Assembly: GCA_017548545.1 (NCBI GenBank)
Contig: JAFYZW010000156.1
Span: 1-64,000 of the forward strand
Length of the DNA: 64,000 bases
Reading direction: 5' to 3'
DNA from: Bacteroidales bacterium
Lineage (GTDB): Bacteria > Bacteroidota > Bacteroidia > Bacteroidales > UBA3663
Part shown: positions 6,935 to 44,232 of the stretch, in pieces
How positions within the stretch are numbered: the first letter of the stretch is position 1
Layout: every line of letters starts with the position of its first letter
Notes under the pieces: model-generated
The model's input: only the letters and a program-made list of their open reading frames with translations
The model's database searches: none
Told to the model about the DNA's origin: nothing
Translations under genes and position numbers: made by a program

Positions 6935-9900
6935 TTAATCATGTTTAGCCGTAGTAGCTTCATTAACAAGATAAGCGATGCTCATGTAGGGAACACCAGA
7001 ATGTGTCTGAAGGCCAATCTCACAGGTGCGACTGTTGGAGTAGCCATAGGTCACATGATTCTGCTCGATTGCTGGTTTCAATTTACGCAGAGCATACTTG
7101 TTCATCTCAGGATGCGTGAAGCCCTTGTCGCCAGCAAAACCGCAGCAACCAACGCCTTCAGGAACAATAACCTTCGTGGCACACATACTTGCAAGTTCGA
7201 CAAGACTGTCGCCCAAACCCAATTCTCGCGTTGAGCAGGTGATATGTACTGCAACCGTGCGATCGAGCTTCTTGAAATTGAGATTATCCTTGAGGAACTT
7301 GAGGATGAACTCTACTGGTTCATAGAGTTTAAGTCGTGGCATCACCTTGCGCATACGGTGCAGACATGGGCTCTGATCGCAGAGGATGGGATATTCGCCT
7401 TCTTTGCTTGCTTCCCATAATGCCTTTTCAAGTTCTGCACTCTTGCGGTCGGCAATATCAAGCATTCCCTTCGACTCCCAAATCTGGCCGCAGCACATCT
7501 TGTTCATGCCATTCGGGAAAATCACCTCATAGCCTGCCTTGTTCATAAGCTGTACCATCTCATCGACGACACTCTGCTTGATTGGAGCGCCCTTGGCCAA
7601 TCCCAAAGTCTGATTCAGGCAGCTGGGGAAATAAACCACCTTCTTGGCCTGCTGGTGTGTCTTGTCGTATTTGGCCTCTTGTGCCATGAGTCGTTTAATA
7701 TCCACACGATTCGGCTTTGGCATCGATGGCGTCCAAAGAGGAACACCCATCTTGTGAAGACCATTACACAAGCCACTCATCACGGACGAGCCAAGGATCG
7801 AATGACCGAAATTGGCAAGGCCAAGCACGCCTCGTAGCGAATTCTCGATGCCACCCATGTGTTTGGCAGCAAATTCGCCGACGTTGTACAAACCTTTGTG
7901 CTTATTCATATTCAACTGGCGAATCAGGTGCGTAAGATCGCCGGTATTGATCTTCATCGGGCAAGAGGTTGAGCAAAGTCCATCGGCAGCACAGGTCTGA
8001 TTGCCATAATACTCATATTGCTTCTCCAAGCGATTGGCACGAGCCATTGCCTCGGTGGTAGCTTTCTTGCGAAGATATAATATTTCACGTTGTATGGCAA
8101 TACGCATACGTGAACTCAATGTGAGACCGCAGCTCAAGCAGTTGAACTCGCAAAAACCGCATTCGATACACTTGTTGGCCTTTTTGACACCTTCGATCAT
8201 CTCTTCGGTCGAAGACTTCACCTTGCCCATATAGGCAAGATACTTGGCGCCATCAGGCACTTCGTCGAAATTGTATGCCAATTCCGGCAAATGCTTCAGG
8301 TGCTCGATGAAGCAATTCGGATTGTCGTTAAAGATAACGCCCGGGTTCAACAGGTATTCGGGATCGAAAATCTCCTTCAGCTCCTTCATCGTATTGTAGG
8401 CATCCTCGCCCCATTCATACTTGACAAAGGGTGCCATGTTGCGACCCGTGCCATGCTCGGCCTTCAACGAACCATCGTATTCTTCAACTACAAGTCTGGC
8501 GACCTCATGCATCAAACGGGCGTAGCGCTGAATTTCCTTCTCTTCGTTGAAGCTCTGGTTGATAATGAAATGATAGTTGCCTTCGAAGGCATGGCCATAG
8601 ATACAGCCGTCGGAATATCCGAAGTCAGCAATGATCTTCTGCAGTTTAACGGTTGCTTCAGGAAGGTCGTTCACTGGGAAGGCAACGTCCTCGATCAGGC
8701 ACGAAGTGCCAATGGGACGCATAGCACCCACGGTCGGGAAGATGCCCGAACGGATGGCCCAATACTTGCCGTAAATCTTGGGATCGTCGGTGAATTCTGT
8801 AGGAATATACAGACGGAACTGGCTCAAAGTCTTCTTGATGGTATCGATCTTGAGCTGCAGGTCCTCATGCGTCATGGCCTTTGTCTCGGTGAGGATGGCG
8901 GTGAGGTTGTGGTAATCACCAGGTTTAACACCATCGATCTTGCCGGCATCGACATCTTTCTTGTACTGAAGGAAGACAGGATCATCGACCGAAGCGAGAG
9001 AGAGATAGTCGAGCATCTCGGCACTCTTCACCATGAGGTTCTCGGCACTCATCTTGATGTCATCGTCCGACGATTTCAGCTTCTTCAAGGCAACTACGCC
9101 TTCGCAGCTCTCCTTCATGGTCATGAAATAGACCATGGCAGAGGCACGATAAGGATATTCATGCAACGTACGCATCGTAACACTGGCAATGAATCCCAGT
9201 GTACCTTCCGCACCGACCATAGAGTGAGCGATGATATCGAACGGATCATCGTAGGCGATGAGCGGACGGATATTCAAGCCCGTTACATTCTTGATGCTGT
9301 ACTTTTTCTTGATACGCTCGGCAAGCTTGGTGTTTGCACGTACTTTGTCGCGCAAAGCCTCGATCTTCTTCAGGAATTCGGGATGAGACTTACGGAATGC
9401 TTCACGACTCTTCTCATCACCCGTATCGAGGATGGTACCATCGGTGAGAATTAACTTTGCTGAGATAAGCATGCGGTCGGAGTTGGCATGAACACCGCAG
9501 TTCATACCCGAAGCATTGTTGCCGACGATACCGCCGACCATCGCGCTATTGATGGAAGCCGGATCGGGTGGAAATACGCGACCGTATGGTTTCAGAATCT
9601 GATTGACGCGACCACCAAGGATACCTGGTTGCAACGTAATCTGTTCCTGGTCGTCGCTGAGTGACCACTCCTCCCAATTCTTGCCAGCAACAATCAGCAC
9701 CGAGTCACTCATGCTCTGGCCAGACAATGCTGTACCTGCTGCACGGAAGGTAAATGGGATGTGGTTATCATAACAAGTCTTCACGATACGTGACAACTCC
9801 TCCTCTCCTTTCGAACGAACCACAATGTGTGGAATCATGCGATAGAAGCTGGCGTCTGTGCCCCATCCAAGGGTGCGCAGTTCATCAGTATAGATACGGT

Positions 9901-9961
9901 TCTCAGGGATGAACGACTTCAACTGCTGAAGAAGTAGTTCGTAGTTTTTAGGATCGTTCAT
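6935..9961 (-). CDS. FAD-linked oxidase fused to Fe-S/CCG domains (D-lactate or 2-hydroxyacid dehydrogenase type)
   Basis: The 1008-residue fusion starts with a PCMH-type FAD-binding domain (AAGTALSGQS at about 75-83, then GGIVGNNASG) and an FAD-oxidase C-terminal region (ending HGTGRNMAPFVK). A ferredoxin-like segment follows with CxxCxxCxxxC (CIECGFCEFNC) and CxxxxxCxxxCP (CAADGLCSTSCP). Two GlpC/heterodisulfide-reductase CCG domains follow (CCGQIWESKG and CCGFAGDKGF). This layout joins GlcD-like and GlcF/GlpC-like functions in one chain and fits oxidation of D-lactate or a similar 2-hydroxyacid with electrons passed to the quinone pool. The substrate cannot be read from sequence. A consensus promoter lies 32 nt before the start, and the gene leads the lipoprotein-protease operon. 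Confidence 0.85.
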   Translation of the reverse strand: MNDPKNYELLLQQLKSFIPENRIYTDELRTLGWGTDASFYRMIPHIVVRSKGEEELSRIVKTCYDNHIPFTFRAAGTALSGQSMSDSVLIVAGKNWEEWSLSDDQEQITLQPGILGGRVNQILKPYGRVFPPDPASINSAMVGGIVGNNASGMNCGVHANSDRMLISAKLILTDGTILDTGDEKSREAFRKSHPEFLKKIEALRDKVRANTKLAERIKKKYSIKNVTGLNIRPLIAYDDPFDIIAHSMVGAEGTLGFIASVTMRTLHEYPYRASAMVYFMTMKESCEGVVALKKLKSSDDDIKMSAENLMVKSAEMLDYLSLASVDDPVFLQYKKDVDAGKIDGVKPGDYHNLTAILTETKAMTHEDLQLKIDTIKKTLSQFRLYIPTEFTDDPKIYGKYWAIRSGIFPTVGAMRPIGTSCLIEDVAFPVNDLPEATVKLQKIIADFGYSDGCIYGHAFEGNYHFIINQSFNEEKEIQRYARLMHEVARLVVEEYDGSLKAEHGTGRNMAPFVKYEWGEDAYNTMKELKEIFDPEYLLNPGVIFNDNPNCFIEHLKHLPELAYNFDEVPDGAKYLAYMGKVKSSTEEMIEGVKKANKCIECGFCEFNCLSCGLTLSSRMRIAIQREILYLRKKATTEAMARANRLEKQYEYYGNQTCAADGLCSTSCPMKINTGDLTHLIRQLNMNKHKGLYNVGEFAAKHMGGIENSLRGVLGLANFGHSILGSSVMSGLCNGLHKMGVPLWTPSMPKPNRVDIKRLMAQEAKYDKTHQQAKKVVYFPSCLNQTLGLAKGAPIKQSVVDEMVQLMNKAGYEVIFPNGMNKMCCGQIWESKGMLDIADRKSAELEKALWEASKEGEYPILCDQSPCLHRMRKVMPRLKLYEPVEFILKFLKDNLNFKKLDRTVAVHITCSTRELGLGDSLVELASMCATKVIVPEGVGCCGFAGDKGFTHPEMNKYALRKLKPAIEQNHVTYGYSNSRTCEIGLQTHSGVPYMSIAYLVNEATTAKHD

Positions 9962-10189: not shown

Positions 10190-10551
10190 GTCCAATTCTC
10201 AATCCTAAATTGGACACATACGATCGGAAACGTCCAATTCTCAATCGTAAATTGGACACATACAATAAGAAACGTCCAATTCTCAATCCTAAATTGGACA
10301 CATGCAATAAGAAACGTCCAATTCTCAATCCTAAATTGGACACATACGATCGGAAACGTCCAATTCTCGATCGTAAATTGGACACATACAATCGGAAACG
10401 TCCAATTCACAATCGTAAATTGGACACATACAATCGGAAACGTCCAATTCTCGATCGTAAATTGGACACATACAATCGGGAACGTCCAATTCACAATCGT
10501 AAATTGGACACATACGATCAGAAACGTCCAATTCACAATCGTGAATTGGAC
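10190..10551. repeat. Tandem array of nine 42-bp units, each with an invariant inverted repeat
   Basis: Eight full units and a final 26-bp part start at 10190, 10232, 10274, 10316, 10358, 10400, 10442, 10484 and 10526. Each begins with GTCCAATT, a 10-nt loop and AATTGGAC. These 16 arm positions are identical in all nine copies, while the loop and the 16-nt linker vary. In the last copy the stem extends to a perfect 11 bp with an AATC loop. The period equals four turns of B-DNA. Because 42 is divisible by 3 and the unit lacks stops in several frames, it gives long but meaningless reading frames. The array lies 47 nt after the stop of the EF-hand gene and about 190 nt upstream of the dehydrogenase promoter. 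It fills most of the 637-bp gap between those genes. Confidence 0.95.
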
Positions 10552-10598: not shown

Positions 10599-12560
10599 TC
10601 AGTTCACATTGGCAGGAGCTGAAGAACCTGTAAATAATCCCTTGCAATATGCCATCCAGTCGAAACCAAGGGCATTGCATATAAAGTAAGCAATGATGAG
10701 GATAAGCAACAGGATGAGGAAGAAGTTGCGAATACGGTGCGTCTTCTCAGGATATGGATCCTTCACATCAAACTTGGCGGGGAAGTTCACAGCCTGCGTC
10801 AATACATTGCCGAATGGGATATTGATCTTGGCAGCAGCATTAATAGCCCAACCCTGTGCATTAAGAATTGGAGCAAGATTGCGCTTGCGGAGCTTGAGCC
10901 AAGCCATGAACATCGATGGACCGGAAATGATGAGGAAGATAGCAAGGATGACGAGGATAAGTTGCCAGATGCTGAGTTTTACCAAACCGCTGAAAATTGC
11001 AACCAAACAAGAGCCCAACATACCAAGTCCTAAGCCGATGGCAGCAAACACACCAGAGAACTTGGCGATGTCGAATCCTCCAGCGGCAGTCTTGCCTGCC
11101 TCCTTGGCGGCAGCTGCATTGGTGAGGTCAACTGACTTCACTTCAGCAGTCTTAGCGTTGAACTTGGCAGTGGCATCAGCCATCACAGCATTCTCTTTCT
11201 CAGCGGCAAACTTGCTGACCTGCTCGCTGACGAAGTTCGAGAACTTGCGATAAGGGCTCCACATGGCCTGCTTGATGGAAATAGGATTATCGATAATGCT
11301 GACAATCTTTGCGTCATAATCCACACCATATACGTCGTAGAAGATACAGTTCTTGCCCACGAAGAGATCACCTACTTCACCCACGGTGACAGCAGCAATG
11401 ATCTTCATAGTATTGCCTGTCGATTTGCTGACGCAGTCGCAAGTAAGAAGATACATACCACTCTTGGCAGCTTGTGCAGCCATGGCAGCAGCATCGGTTA
11501 CACGTACGCAAAGGTCGCATGTGCGTTGATCAACCACGAGGGTACCTACTTGGAAGATGGCCCACTTTTGCGTATTGTAGAGGTCCTGCAGCGTGATGTA
11601 GTTGCGAAGCAGTGTGAAGAAGTCGCGTGTCAGGTGCAAGAGTTTGTCAACCGACTGCTTGGCAGCCTGTTCCTCATCAACAGTGATGTCATCCTCTGTG
11701 ATGGAAATGCTCTTCTGATAGTCTTCGAAAGCTTTCAACTTGGCACCAATCTCATTCCATTCGGCTTCGGTAAGTTTTTTGGCCTTCGGATCGAGCGCAC
11801 CTTTAACGGTTTCGAACTGAGCAGCCCATGCCGGGTTGATGGGTTCGTCGAGAGCGATGGCTTCTACACCTTCCTTGATACGAGCGATAGGATAAGAAGC
11901 TATCTCGGCAAGTTTGTCGGTCAGATTGGCAGGTGATATGCCTTCGATGCTGGCCACCTGCACATCAAGGGCTGGAGCGCTCTCCTTCGAATACTTGGTG
12001 AGCTTTCCACGAAGGAAGAAGTCCTTCACCTTGGCATCGAGAGCCTTGTAAGCAGCATCAATGTCAGCCGTCTTGTCGCCGTATGGAGCAGCCACCTCAG
12101 CTTCCTTCTTTGCAGCCTCAAGAGCTGCTTCGAACTTGTTCTTGCGATAGGCATCGAGGCAACCCTTACTGTCGGCCAAAGAGATGGCGGTGGGTTCTTT
12201 TCCGAGTTGGTTGAGGATATCGGCAGCTACATCATAGAGCATCTTGCCTTCCTCGTCTTCCTGGTTGATAGCGCTGAGTGGCAGCGTATCCTTTCCTTCA
12301 ACGACGGGCTGCAGGTCCTTCAAAACCTTGCAAAGCCACTTGGAAACACCGATAACTTCATCGATACGGATGTGTCCATCGCCATTGGTGTCCATATACT
12401 TGAGCGATTGCTCGTCAATTTCGAGACCACTCACTGGACAAGACAGCACTGTCCACATCTTCTTGTCAAGTTCATCGAGGTGCTTGATGTCCTCGGCAGA
12501 ACTGATGTACACGCGGGTGACACCACCGATGCGTGCAAATTTCCATTTGTAATTTGACAT
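10599..12560 (-). CDS. EF-hand membrane protein of unknown function
   Basis: The protein has 653 residues. A canonical 12-residue EF-hand calcium loop lies at residues 57-68 (DTNGDGHIRIDE, acidic or polar at 1, 3, 5 and 12, Gly at 6, Ile at 8). A long Ala/Lys/Glu-rich helical region follows, then a cysteine pair CDLC at 348-351 with CDC at 374-376 that could bind metal. Hydrophobic membrane segments are at about 503-528, 532-555 and 612-633. There is no signal peptide, so the large N-terminal part is probably cytoplasmic. It follows hisC after 53 nt and may be transcribed with the his genes. It resembles EF-hand-domain proteins annotated in Bacteroidales, but no function is known to me. Confidence 0.7.
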   Translation of the reverse strand: MSNYKWKFARIGGVTRVYISSAEDIKHLDELDKKMWTVLSCPVSGLEIDEQSLKYMDTNGDGHIRIDEVIGVSKWLCKVLKDLQPVVEGKDTLPLSAINQEDEEGKMLYDVAADILNQLGKEPTAISLADSKGCLDAYRKNKFEAALEAAKKEAEVAAPYGDKTADIDAAYKALDAKVKDFFLRGKLTKYSKESAPALDVQVASIEGISPANLTDKLAEIASYPIARIKEGVEAIALDEPINPAWAAQFETVKGALDPKAKKLTEAEWNEIGAKLKAFEDYQKSISITEDDITVDEEQAAKQSVDKLLHLTRDFFTLLRNYITLQDLYNTQKWAIFQVGTLVVDQRTCDLCVRVTDAAAMAAQAAKSGMYLLTCDCVSKSTGNTMKIIAAVTVGEVGDLFVGKNCIFYDVYGVDYDAKIVSIIDNPISIKQAMWSPYRKFSNFVSEQVSKFAAEKENAVMADATAKFNAKTAEVKSVDLTNAAAAKEAGKTAAGGFDIAKFSGVFAAIGLGLGMLGSCLVAIFSGLVKLSIWQLILVILAIFLIISGPSMFMAWLKLRKRNLAPILNAQGWAINAAAKINIPFGNVLTQAVNFPAKFDVKDPYPEKTHRIRNFFLILLLILIIAYFICNALGFDWMAYCKGLFTGSSAPANVN

Positions 12561-12613
12561 GATTTTGTGAATTAATAATTAATAATTTACAATTAACAAT
12601 TAATCATTTATAA

Positions 12614-13669
12614 TTAGATTGTTTTTAAGGTTTCGTATAAAGACGCAATCTCGTCGGATGTGCCCACAGTAATACGCAAGCAACCCTGACATAGATGTAC
12701 ACGTGTGCGGTTTCGAACAATAATTCCTTTGTTTTGCAGATAGCGATAGATATAATCAGCCGATTGGCCGTTATCCATACCATCGAGCTTCACGCGAACC
12801 AACAGGAAGTTGGCATCACTCGGATAGACATGCTCGACAAAGGGTAGCGAACCAAGAAGGATGCGAAGTATCTCACGCCCTCCAAGAATCTCCTCGACAT
12901 GACGGTCGTGAACCTCAGGATGACTCAGTGCACGAATGGCAGCCTGCTGCGTCAACACGTTGATATTATAGGGATATTTAACGCGATTGAAATACCTGAT
13001 GATCTCTGGATTGGCGAATGCAATACCGCAACGGATAGCAGCTTGTCCCCAAGCCTTGCTGAAGGTCTGAAGAACGATCAGGTTATCATATTGGTCCAAT
13101 AAAGTCAGCATCGAACCTTTATCGGAAAAGTCGATATAGGCTTCATCTACAACGACGATGAGATCACGATATGTCTTTACCAAAGATTCCAACTCCCGAA
13201 GTTCGAAGGCATTGCCCGAGGGATTATTGGGCGAACATATCCAGAGAACCTTGGTATGTTCATCGACTTTCGAAGCGATAGCAGGTAGGTCAAGCTGGAA
13301 GTCGTCGGTAAGACTTACCGGACGATAATCGATATCGTTCACATCGGCACAAACCTGATACATGCCGTAGGAAGGCGAAATAGCTACTACGTTATCGATG
13401 CGTGGTTCGCAGAAGATTCGATAAACAAGATCGATGGCTTCGTCGCTGCCATTACCCAGGAAAATCTGGTCTTCACTCACTCCCTTTCTTGCTGCCAAAA
13501 GAACTTTAACCTCATGTTGCAAGGGGTCGGGGTAACGATTGACTCCATTGTTATAAGGCGACTCATTGGCATCGATATAGACACTTGCCTCTCCCTTGAA
13601 CTCGTCGCGAGCACAAGAGTATGGGGCAAGTGCCAGAATATTACGTCGAATGACTCTTGACAAATCCAT
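12614..13669 (-). CDS. hisC: Histidinol-phosphate aminotransferase
   Basis: The protein has 351 residues of the class I/II PLP aminotransferase fold. Visible motifs are CSPNNPSGNA, DEAYIDFSD and the PLP-lysine segment TFSKAWGQAAIRCG near residue 205. It catalyses transamination of imidazole-acetol phosphate to histidinol phosphate. The start lies 1 nt after the hisD stop, so translation is coupled in the order hisG-hisD-hisC. hisB, often the next gene in related genomes, is not here. An EF-hand gene follows instead. Confidence 0.95.
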   Translation of the reverse strand: MDLSRVIRRNILALAPYSCARDEFKGEASVYIDANESPYNNGVNRYPDPLQHEVKVLLAARKGVSEDQIFLGNGSDEAIDLVYRIFCEPRIDNVVAISPSYGMYQVCADVNDIDYRPVSLTDDFQLDLPAIASKVDEHTKVLWICSPNNPSGNAFELRELESLVKTYRDLIVVVDEAYIDFSDKGSMLTLLDQYDNLIVLQTFSKAWGQAAIRCGIAFANPEIIRYFNRVKYPYNINVLTQQAAIRALSHPEVHDRHVEEILGGREILRILLGSLPFVEHVYPSDANFLLVRVKLDGMDNGQSADYIYRYLQNKGIIVRNRTRVHLCQGCLRITVGTSDEIASLYETLKTI

Positions 13670-43247: not shown

Positions 43248-44165
43248 ATGAATCGTAATTCAAATGTTTATACTGTCATCTACGCAACCGTTTTGACAGT
43301 ATTGGTAGCCATCCTGCTTTCTGCAGCCGCCTTGGGTCTCAAGGACAAGCAGAAAGCCAACATGGACAACGAGAAGAAGCAGCAGATCCTGCAGTCCGTA
43401 GCCACCAAGTTGGGCAAGGCTGTAACGTTCGAGAATGCTGCCGACCTCTGGAAGGAGCTCAACATGGACGACGCCATGTTCTGCGTCAACACCAAGGGTG
43501 AGAAGGTCGAAGGACAGACCGCTTTCGACATTGCTTCCAAGATTCTCTTCGACAAGGGCAAGATCAAGGAAGATGCTACGCTGCCCGTCTATGTAGCCAA
43601 CATCGAAGGCGTACCCTACCGCATCGTGAGCCTCTATGGTGCAGGTCTGTGGGGACCCATCTGGGGTTATCTTTCAGTCGATCCCGAAGGCAAGGTGGCC
43701 GGTGTATCCTTCGACCACGAGTCTGAGACCGCTGGCCTCGGTGCCAAGATCAAGGACGATCCCGCCTTCGCTGAGGCCTTCATCGGCAAGAGCCTCTTCA
43801 CCGATGGCAAGTTCACTTCTGTCTCTGTCACCAAGGCCGGCAAGCCTGCCAACCATGGCGGCGAGAAGGTCGATGCCATCACGGGTGCCACCAAGACATC
43901 CGACTATGTAGGCGACATGATTTGGGAATCCTTGCTGGGCTATGTTCCATTCCTCCAGGGCGCTACCTCTCCTGCCGGCGGCTGCAAGAAGCATGAAGGC
44001 TGCAAGAAGCATGAAGGCTGCGAGAAGCCCTGTGATATGGAAGGTTGCCAGAAGGAAGCCTGCACCCCCGAAGCCTGTGGCAAGCCGGAGTGCAAGGCCC
44101 AATGTGGCGAAAAGGCCGAATGCGCCGACAAAGCTGAGTGTGATGCCTGCAAAAAGGCTGAGTAA
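43248..44165 (+). CDS. nqrC: Na+-NQR subunit C with a cysteine-rich C-terminal extension
   Basis: The start MNRNSNVYTVIYATV matches the usual NqrC N-terminus, giving 305 residues. One membrane helix (about 8-30) precedes a periplasmic FMN domain ending with the flavinylation motif TGATKTS (Thr attachment). Normal NqrC ends soon after LGYVPFL. Here about 60 more residues follow, with 12 cysteines in a Lys/Glu/Ala-rich context, beginning with two near-identical CKKHEG units and ending CDACKKAE. The tail would lie in the periplasm. It resembles a metal-binding, metallothionein-like tail, but that is inference. The reading frame is open to the stop and nqrD follows normally, so it is not a frameshift product. 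Confidence 0.92.
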   Translation: MNRNSNVYTVIYATVLTVLVAILLSAAALGLKDKQKANMDNEKKQQILQSVATKLGKAVTFENAADLWKELNMDDAMFCVNTKGEKVEGQTAFDIASKILFDKGKIKEDATLPVYVANIEGVPYRIVSLYGAGLWGPIWGYLSVDPEGKVAGVSFDHESETAGLGAKIKDDPAFAEAFIGKSLFTDGKFTSVSVTKAGKPANHGGEKVDAITGATKTSDYVGDMIWESLLGYVPFLQGATSPAGGCKKHEGCKKHEGCEKPCDMEGCQKEACTPEACGKPECKAQCGEKAECADKAECDACKKAE

Positions 44166-44203
44166 TTGTCAATTGTTAGTTATCGATTGTCAATTGTAAA
44201 AAA

Positions 44204-44224
44204 TTAATTGTTAATTGTTAATTG
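44204..44224. repeat. Three 7-bp repeats TTAATTG in the nqrC-nqrD gap
   Basis: TTAATTG occurs three times head to tail, ending 8 nt before the nqrD start. Further ATTGT and CAATTG elements fill the rest of the 67-bp gap. Similar A/T-rich heptamer repeats precede the EF-hand gene and coaD. Confidence 0.8.
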
Positions 44225-44232
44225 TAACAGTT

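Follow-up and report, generated by a model that had tools for sequence, protein, structure and literature searches.

Intergenic palindrome arrays with a 42-bp step in some rumen Bacteroidales

Some uncultured rumen Bacteroidales carry a previously undescribed set of arrays of approximately 400 bp, in which palindromes are repeated at a step of 41-42 bp. One of these arrays is located in the window, i.e., the whole stretch of 64,000 nt that was analysed. To our knowledge, no described bacterial repeat combines a four-turn step, a near-constant length, interchangeable palindromes with a related linker core, and a wide, even spacing, and a search of open-licence PMC papers for literature on 42-bp palindrome arrays found none.

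The features of the window array are listed in Table 1. The original prediction, of nine identical-arm palindromes with a 42-bp period at positions 10190-10551, is borne out by exact pattern matches, shuffles and TRF. Nine exact GTCCAATT-N-AATTGGAC matches are found where 0 are expected (100 dinucleotide shuffles), and TRF reports positions 10190-10551 with a period of 42, 8.6 copies, 92% matches and zero indels; zero units are found beyond these coordinates. The arms are invariant in 9/9 units and variation is confined to the loops and linkers. The linkers, described beforehand as differing, are present between all units and are indeed variable in form (CAATAAG occurs in two of them), but they are not featureless, as a CGATYG-type core is present in most. 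The name “EF-hand gene”, given earlier to the 653-aa neighbour, is unconfirmed, this gene having no Pfam match. The FAD-linked oxidase gene on the other side is not considered a component of the array system. Short 7/21-bp repeats (AATTAAC and TAATTGT types) are also present in intergenic AT-rich DNA of the window, at 12570-12616 and 44163-44225; similar AATTAAC/AATTG heptamers are found near the arrays of relatives, and are possibly unrelated to the arrays.

Table 1. Features of the window array and its neighbours, and loci of type-A arrays
Feature	Position	Strand	Remarks
Type-A array	10190..10551	.	nine GTCCAATT-N10-AATTGGAC palindromes; step exactly 42 bp
Palindrome 1	10190..10215	.	26 bp
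Palindromes 2-9 (start positions)	10232, 10274, 10316, 10358, 10400, 10442, 10484, 10526		
Linker 1	10216..10231	.	ACATACGATCGGAAAC; contains CGATYG-type core 21 bp from both flanking palindrome centres
653-aa gene	10599..12560	-	no Pfam family; stop 48 bp from array
1008-aa FAD-linked oxidase carrying FeS domains	6935..9961	-	start 229 bp from array
A-array locus dnaE/typA			all six species
A-array locus 3′ of polA-YgjP			all six species
A-array locus 3′ of DUF2851			four species
A-array locus GH97/HTH-GH95			five species
A-array locus glycerate kinase/DUF6057			three species
A-array locus laccase-like/acyl-ACP thioesterase			two species

Conservation of the type-A unit was assessed with 265 units from 35 arrays. 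Mismatch to the consensus is 1.9% in the arms, 22% in the loops and 38% in the linkers, and across loci and species the arms are 10-20-fold better conserved than loops and linkers. A comparison of arms with the rest of the unit on array consensuses gives a Fisher P of 2e-47, although the arrays are partly related and not fully independent, so that the true significance is weaker. The figures uphold the proposal that selection acts on the palindrome; arms that vary like loops in relatives, or absence of the array from relatives, had been named as outcomes contrary to it, and neither was found. Most of the variation in type-A arms is a single change, A6 to T, which never affects both sides of a unit. 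At this pair 68 units show a one-sided change and 0 a compensated one, and at pairs 8-10 of type B 138 changes are one-sided and broken while 5 are compensated. Such uncompensated, one-sided changes indicate recognition of half-sites and not base pairing.

When oriented, the type-A site is GTCCAWTT-TAC-N6-G-AATTGGAC, with an asymmetric, partly conserved loop, and thus consists of two unequal half-sites. Loop orientation is constant inside nearly all A arrays and is conserved between species at nearly every A-array locus. The linker core CGATYG is centred 21 bp from each dyad and is common to A and B arrays; a core resembling it is found in D/E/F linkers in a survey of all types, which is approximate because the palindrome/linker phase is swapped in some arrays. 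The predicted helical phasing holds, with 333/343 centre-to-centre steps between A and B palindromes at exactly 42 bp and 7 at 84.

At least six palindrome types (A-F) are found in these genomes, in arrays that are pure or alternating. Type B is a 32-bp palindrome, GCATACAGATTTG-N6-...CTGTATGC, that alternates with A in some arrays, with 42 bp between centres, and forms pure arrays in most of the six species. Further types, which also appear in mosaics, are D (AAGCACTCTGACGGCCGACAGAGTGCTT), E (GCATAACCAATCTTGGCCAAGATTGGTTATGC) and F (GCATGTCC-N16-GGACATGC); A/B and D/E combinations are among the mosaics. The type at one locus can differ between species. The window locus has A in G000 (the window's own genome), C in G006 and G003, and D in G004. 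In G006 the type C array (GCACAATNTTGGCCGAGATTGTGC) has a step of 41, 8.7 copies and the same two neighbours, while in G003 and G004 the array is downstream of the 653-aa gene orthologue, past one intervening gene. Further type swaps are A vs mixed A/B (L026/L125) and mixed vs B (L049/L124).

Among tandem arrays 120 bp or longer, an unbiased sample of G000 (446 kb) and G003 (397 kb) shows a step of 41, 42 or 84 in 17 of 19. The same sampling gives 5/5 in G012 and 2/2 in G005 (step 41, only about 3 copies), and 0/4 in 339 kb of other families. In G012, a more distant member of the same genus, the 42-bp-step arrays (L084 3577-3725, L187 and L191) have quite different palindromes, CTAACCAA..TTGGTTAG and CTCAGAACATTGTTCTCAG; one of the five G012 arrays is apparently inside an ORF.

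The window's own genome is a 3.33-Mb MAG with more type-A arrays on contigs C28, C103, C133, C137 and C153, of which those of C133 and C153 appear to be a single locus that the assembly split in two (compare L028). About 4-7 type-A arrays per genome are found in G000 and its sister species G003, G004, G006, G007 and G011; all genomes are incomplete MAGs, probably short-read, some contigs stop within arrays, and array lengths and copy numbers could be compressed. At the BLAST level type-A arrays are absent from nine other genomes of the same genus and from 45 genomes of other families. The palindrome doublet, sought in 84,980 species genomes, is found only in MAGs of this rumen Bacteroidales group (Reindeer_1_mag_244, RGIG7607, RGIG8089, RUG465 and Tb.RUG.418). 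The earlier assignment to Prevotella is not established, since the relatives are rumen Bacteroidales MAGs, one of them labelled Prevotellaceae. In G000, G003, G006, G007 and G011 more than 90% of A sites are inside arrays, and there are hardly any solitary type-A copies. A plasmid or phage origin was rejected on zero blastn matches in plasmid and phage collections and zero matches to the palindrome in a pattern search of IMG/VR viral contigs. G006 has a second dnaE/typA and a second polA-YgjP array locus (L035, L037; contigs C50, C31), with a 92% identical TypA fragment on C50, which suggests that this MAG is mixed or contaminated.

Orthologous intergenic positions repeatedly hold A arrays, either pure or mixed with B, and most of the A-array loci are shared, by 2-6 species each (Table 1). 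No such array is present in the typA regions that are readable among the other nine genomes; the one in G012 has about 3.5 copies of a 42-bp repeat that is unrelated. At the DUF2851 position, where G000, G003, G006 and G007 have a whole array, G011 has a single type-F palindrome (GCATGTCCTCCTTGGAACCTTGGGGGACATGC; G011:C10:5267-5298, L233) approximately 40 bp past the stop codon, a possible array seed or remnant. The genes that adjoin arrays are unrelated to each other (dnaE, typA, polA, DUF2851, GH97/GH95, glycerate kinase, laccase-like, oxidase), and no ParA/ParB, cas gene or transposase is found among the Pfam-scanned neighbours. In a set that mixes sampled and targeted loci, 56 arrays comprise 13 between divergent, 30 between co-directional and 13 between convergent genes, compared with 64, 140 and 30 array-free gaps, respectively. 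The intergenic class does not matter to array placement, and the divergent share is about equal to that of the background. Start codons facing arrays are typically 110-300 bp away, and many arrays start 1-60 bp past a stop codon.

Linker orientation opposes GC skew at 8/9 A loci but is inconsistent for B and D/E/F; polarity set by replication direction therefore fails as a general rule, the consistency being limited to A arrays. A defence island was also rejected, as the only PADLOC matches among seven neighbours were to generic helicases or ATPases. In G007 a 1566-aa fusion of a DEAD/RecQ-like helicase and a UvrD-type helicase (L026 6726-11426) adjoins an array.

Spacing was measured in 1.38 Mb of contiguous sequence, a sample of 13-15 gaps only. 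The 15 gaps, with the adjacent pair on G003:C39 set aside, are 29.8-72.5 kb (mean 49 kb, CV 0.28). Equally even placement occurs in 0 of 50,000 random placements, although part of the test data is not independent, as the spacing idea came from contig C23 and most of C38. Contigs fetched afterwards (C30, the rest of C38, and C39) have no short gaps except the adjacent pair. A stricter set, from which weak arrays and G012 are dropped, has 13 gaps, including one that may be 117 kb, with a minimum of 29.8 kb (P = 1e-4 for the minimum). G006 and G007 add three more array pairs, separated by 26-38 kb. Excluding one adjacent pair, arrays are at least 26 kb apart and are spaced more regularly than chance. 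The sole close pair seen is at G003:C39:1542-2405 (L261), a type-F array followed by a type-D array with 100 bp between. The sampled stretches have 18-23 arrays per Mb, from which several dozen arrays per chromosome are estimated. Arrays run about 300-450 bp, and their lengths cluster at 362, 404 and 446 bp.

The arrays may be multivalent protein-binding DNA, similar to sopC in form and to BIMEs in dispersal, and their role is probably in chromosome organisation; this reading is favoured here, but tentatively. The conserved half-sites, the uncompensated asymmetry, the divergent contexts and the scarcity of solitary A sites point to a double-stranded DNA target and not to an RNA hairpin. Since ten dyads share one helical face, cooperative binding of a homodimer is the natural reading, and the F plasmid centromere offers a precedent. 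The dispersal on the chromosome with wide spacing, among unrelated housekeeping and catabolic neighbours, suggests chromosome organisation over local control. In this reading each unit of approximately 42 bp carries a strong dyad (P), whose sequence is one of several types, and a weaker one (L) at a distance of two helical turns, whose core in A and B arrays is CGATYG. About ten P sites on one face of the helix would be bound cooperatively by a putative homodimeric DNA-binding protein, or by a few paralogues with different P specificities. Binding would compact each array into a nucleoprotein focus of about 400 bp, and foci every 30-70 kb or so may organise or anchor the chromosome. An operator or nucleoid-anchor array, as originally predicted, is the best form of explanation; the protein, its cooperative binding and the chromosome-organising role are what we infer from it. 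Counting for protein-binding arrays are the orthologous loci in 3-6 species and the exchange of palindrome type at one locus. Counting against them, no binding protein was found, the presence of multiple types per genome would call for more than one protein or for a single one with relaxed specificity, and homologous repeats dispersed by some mover would also explain much. A more ambitious form of the proposal, which we consider rather unlikely, is a new chromosome-organising system. It would consist of dozens of arrays of approximately 400 bp with a four-turn step, about every 50 kb, which retain their step, length, linker core and locus although the palindrome is exchangeable between species, and a co-evolving DNA-binding protein family would partition the chromosome into domains. 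Provided that the arrays bind protein, they offer natural, easily recognised domain landmarks on Bacteroidales chromosomes, whose organisation is poorly known.

The main rival is a selfish or neutral BIME-like repeat family, i.e., a palindromic minisatellite of 42-bp units that spread to numerous intergenic sites in the distant past and has stayed uniform through slippage and gene conversion, with a step that is inherited and not selected. The linker core common to A and B and similar in D/E/F implies that the arrays are probably homologous, each array is homogenised internally and differs between loci, the A/B and D/E mosaics resemble BIME mosaics, and the same-genus G012 and G005 have 41-42-bp arrays of other sequence. 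Such a family explains homology and mosaics, but not the conservation of arms or the spacing, and the constant array length and orthologous retention in up to six species also argue against it. RAYT transposase is thought to mobilise REPs. This Y1-type transposase (PF01797) was not found in 4/6 genomes (77-90% complete), and beside the two PF01797 matches there are no A, B or F palindromes and no 42-bp arrays. A selfish or neutral origin is possible but somewhat unlikely, and would mean a repeat family that apparently spread without a RAYT transposase. Placement similar to transposition with target immunity should also be considered, with arrays as remnants or ends of a mobile element that avoids other copies of itself. 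It would fit the minimum spacing of about 26-30 kb and the dispersal of related arrays, but the lack of transposases among the scanned neighbours and of plasmid, phage or viral-contig matches makes it scarcely probable, and at the DUF2851 locus without an array in G011 and G004 a clean empty site is not shown.

Arrays could instead act locally, each as an operator cluster for its adjoining genes. Cooperative operator arrays are known in bacteria, and the distance to the facing start codons leaves room for a promoter. However, the neighbouring genes are unrelated, 13/56 arrays are between convergent genes, and single operators outside arrays hardly exist, which renders local regulation improbable. 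At the RNA level, a string of hairpins at mRNA 3′ ends, as originally suggested, might serve as stabiliser, attenuator or terminator. The folding energy of single units is -8 to -10 kcal/mol, two terminator-like matches are found within the window array, and the frequent start of arrays shortly after stop codons would agree with this role. Against it, arrays lie between divergent genes as often as expected, and the presence of arrays between divergent, co-directional and convergent genes indicates that they are not a 3′-UTR feature. Moreover, arm changes break pairs with compensation nearly absent, and Rfam has no match over the window arrays and four G003 stretches; an RNA element is therefore very improbable. 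An intrinsic terminator or structured RNA was likewise rejected, compensatory stem changes being absent at A pair 6 and few (5, against 138 one-sided and broken) at B pairs 8-10. The period equals 14 codons and frames are open on both strands at the window array; a coding repeat was discarded because 85- and 125-bp steps and stops in related arrays break any frame.

Among known systems, REP/BIME, ParB-parS and CRISPR each differ from the arrays in at least one tested feature. Similar to CRISPR, the arrays are regular and their repeats are partly palindromic; however, both parts of the unit repeat here and unique spacers are absent, and CRISPR was rejected on the repetition of linkers within arrays and the absence of cas genes among scanned neighbours. 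The family of repeats in EBV oriP is a set of tandem palindromes on which a dimeric protein tethers DNA. By analogy the present arrays may be similar, as tandem palindromes bound in EBV by a dimeric protein; the likeness is drawn from form and not sequence, and oriP differs in being a viral single site with a 30-bp step. REPs and BIMEs, especially BIME-2, are palindromes dispersed in extragenic regions of the chromosome, with tandem units and two-type mosaics (PMC2817692), and the arrays resemble them in these respects, many imperfect palindromes being found in extragenic space. The arrays differ in being direct repeats of constant orientation, with no alternation in nearly all A arrays, and in their exact step and wide separation. 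For type A, solitary copies are rare in 5/6 genomes; for type F, one solitary copy is present in G011. A RAYT-driven REP was rejected on the lack of PF01797 in 4/6 genomes. The F plasmid centromere sopC (parS), bound by ParB, has twelve 43-bp repeats with ten 16-bp inverted repeats (PMC6238139). Unlike sopC, which is one plasmid site beside sopAB, the arrays are estimated at dozens of chromosomal sites, have several palindrome types and an additional dyad at a distance of 21 bp, and no parAB-type operon is found beside them among the scanned neighbours (dnaE, typA, polA, DUF2851, GH97 and others). Important is the similarity in form: in both there are about ten direct repeats with a four-turn step, 43 bp in sopC and 42 bp here, and each unit has an inverted repeat (palindromes of 26 or 32 bp here) suited to a dimeric HTH protein (PMC6238139).
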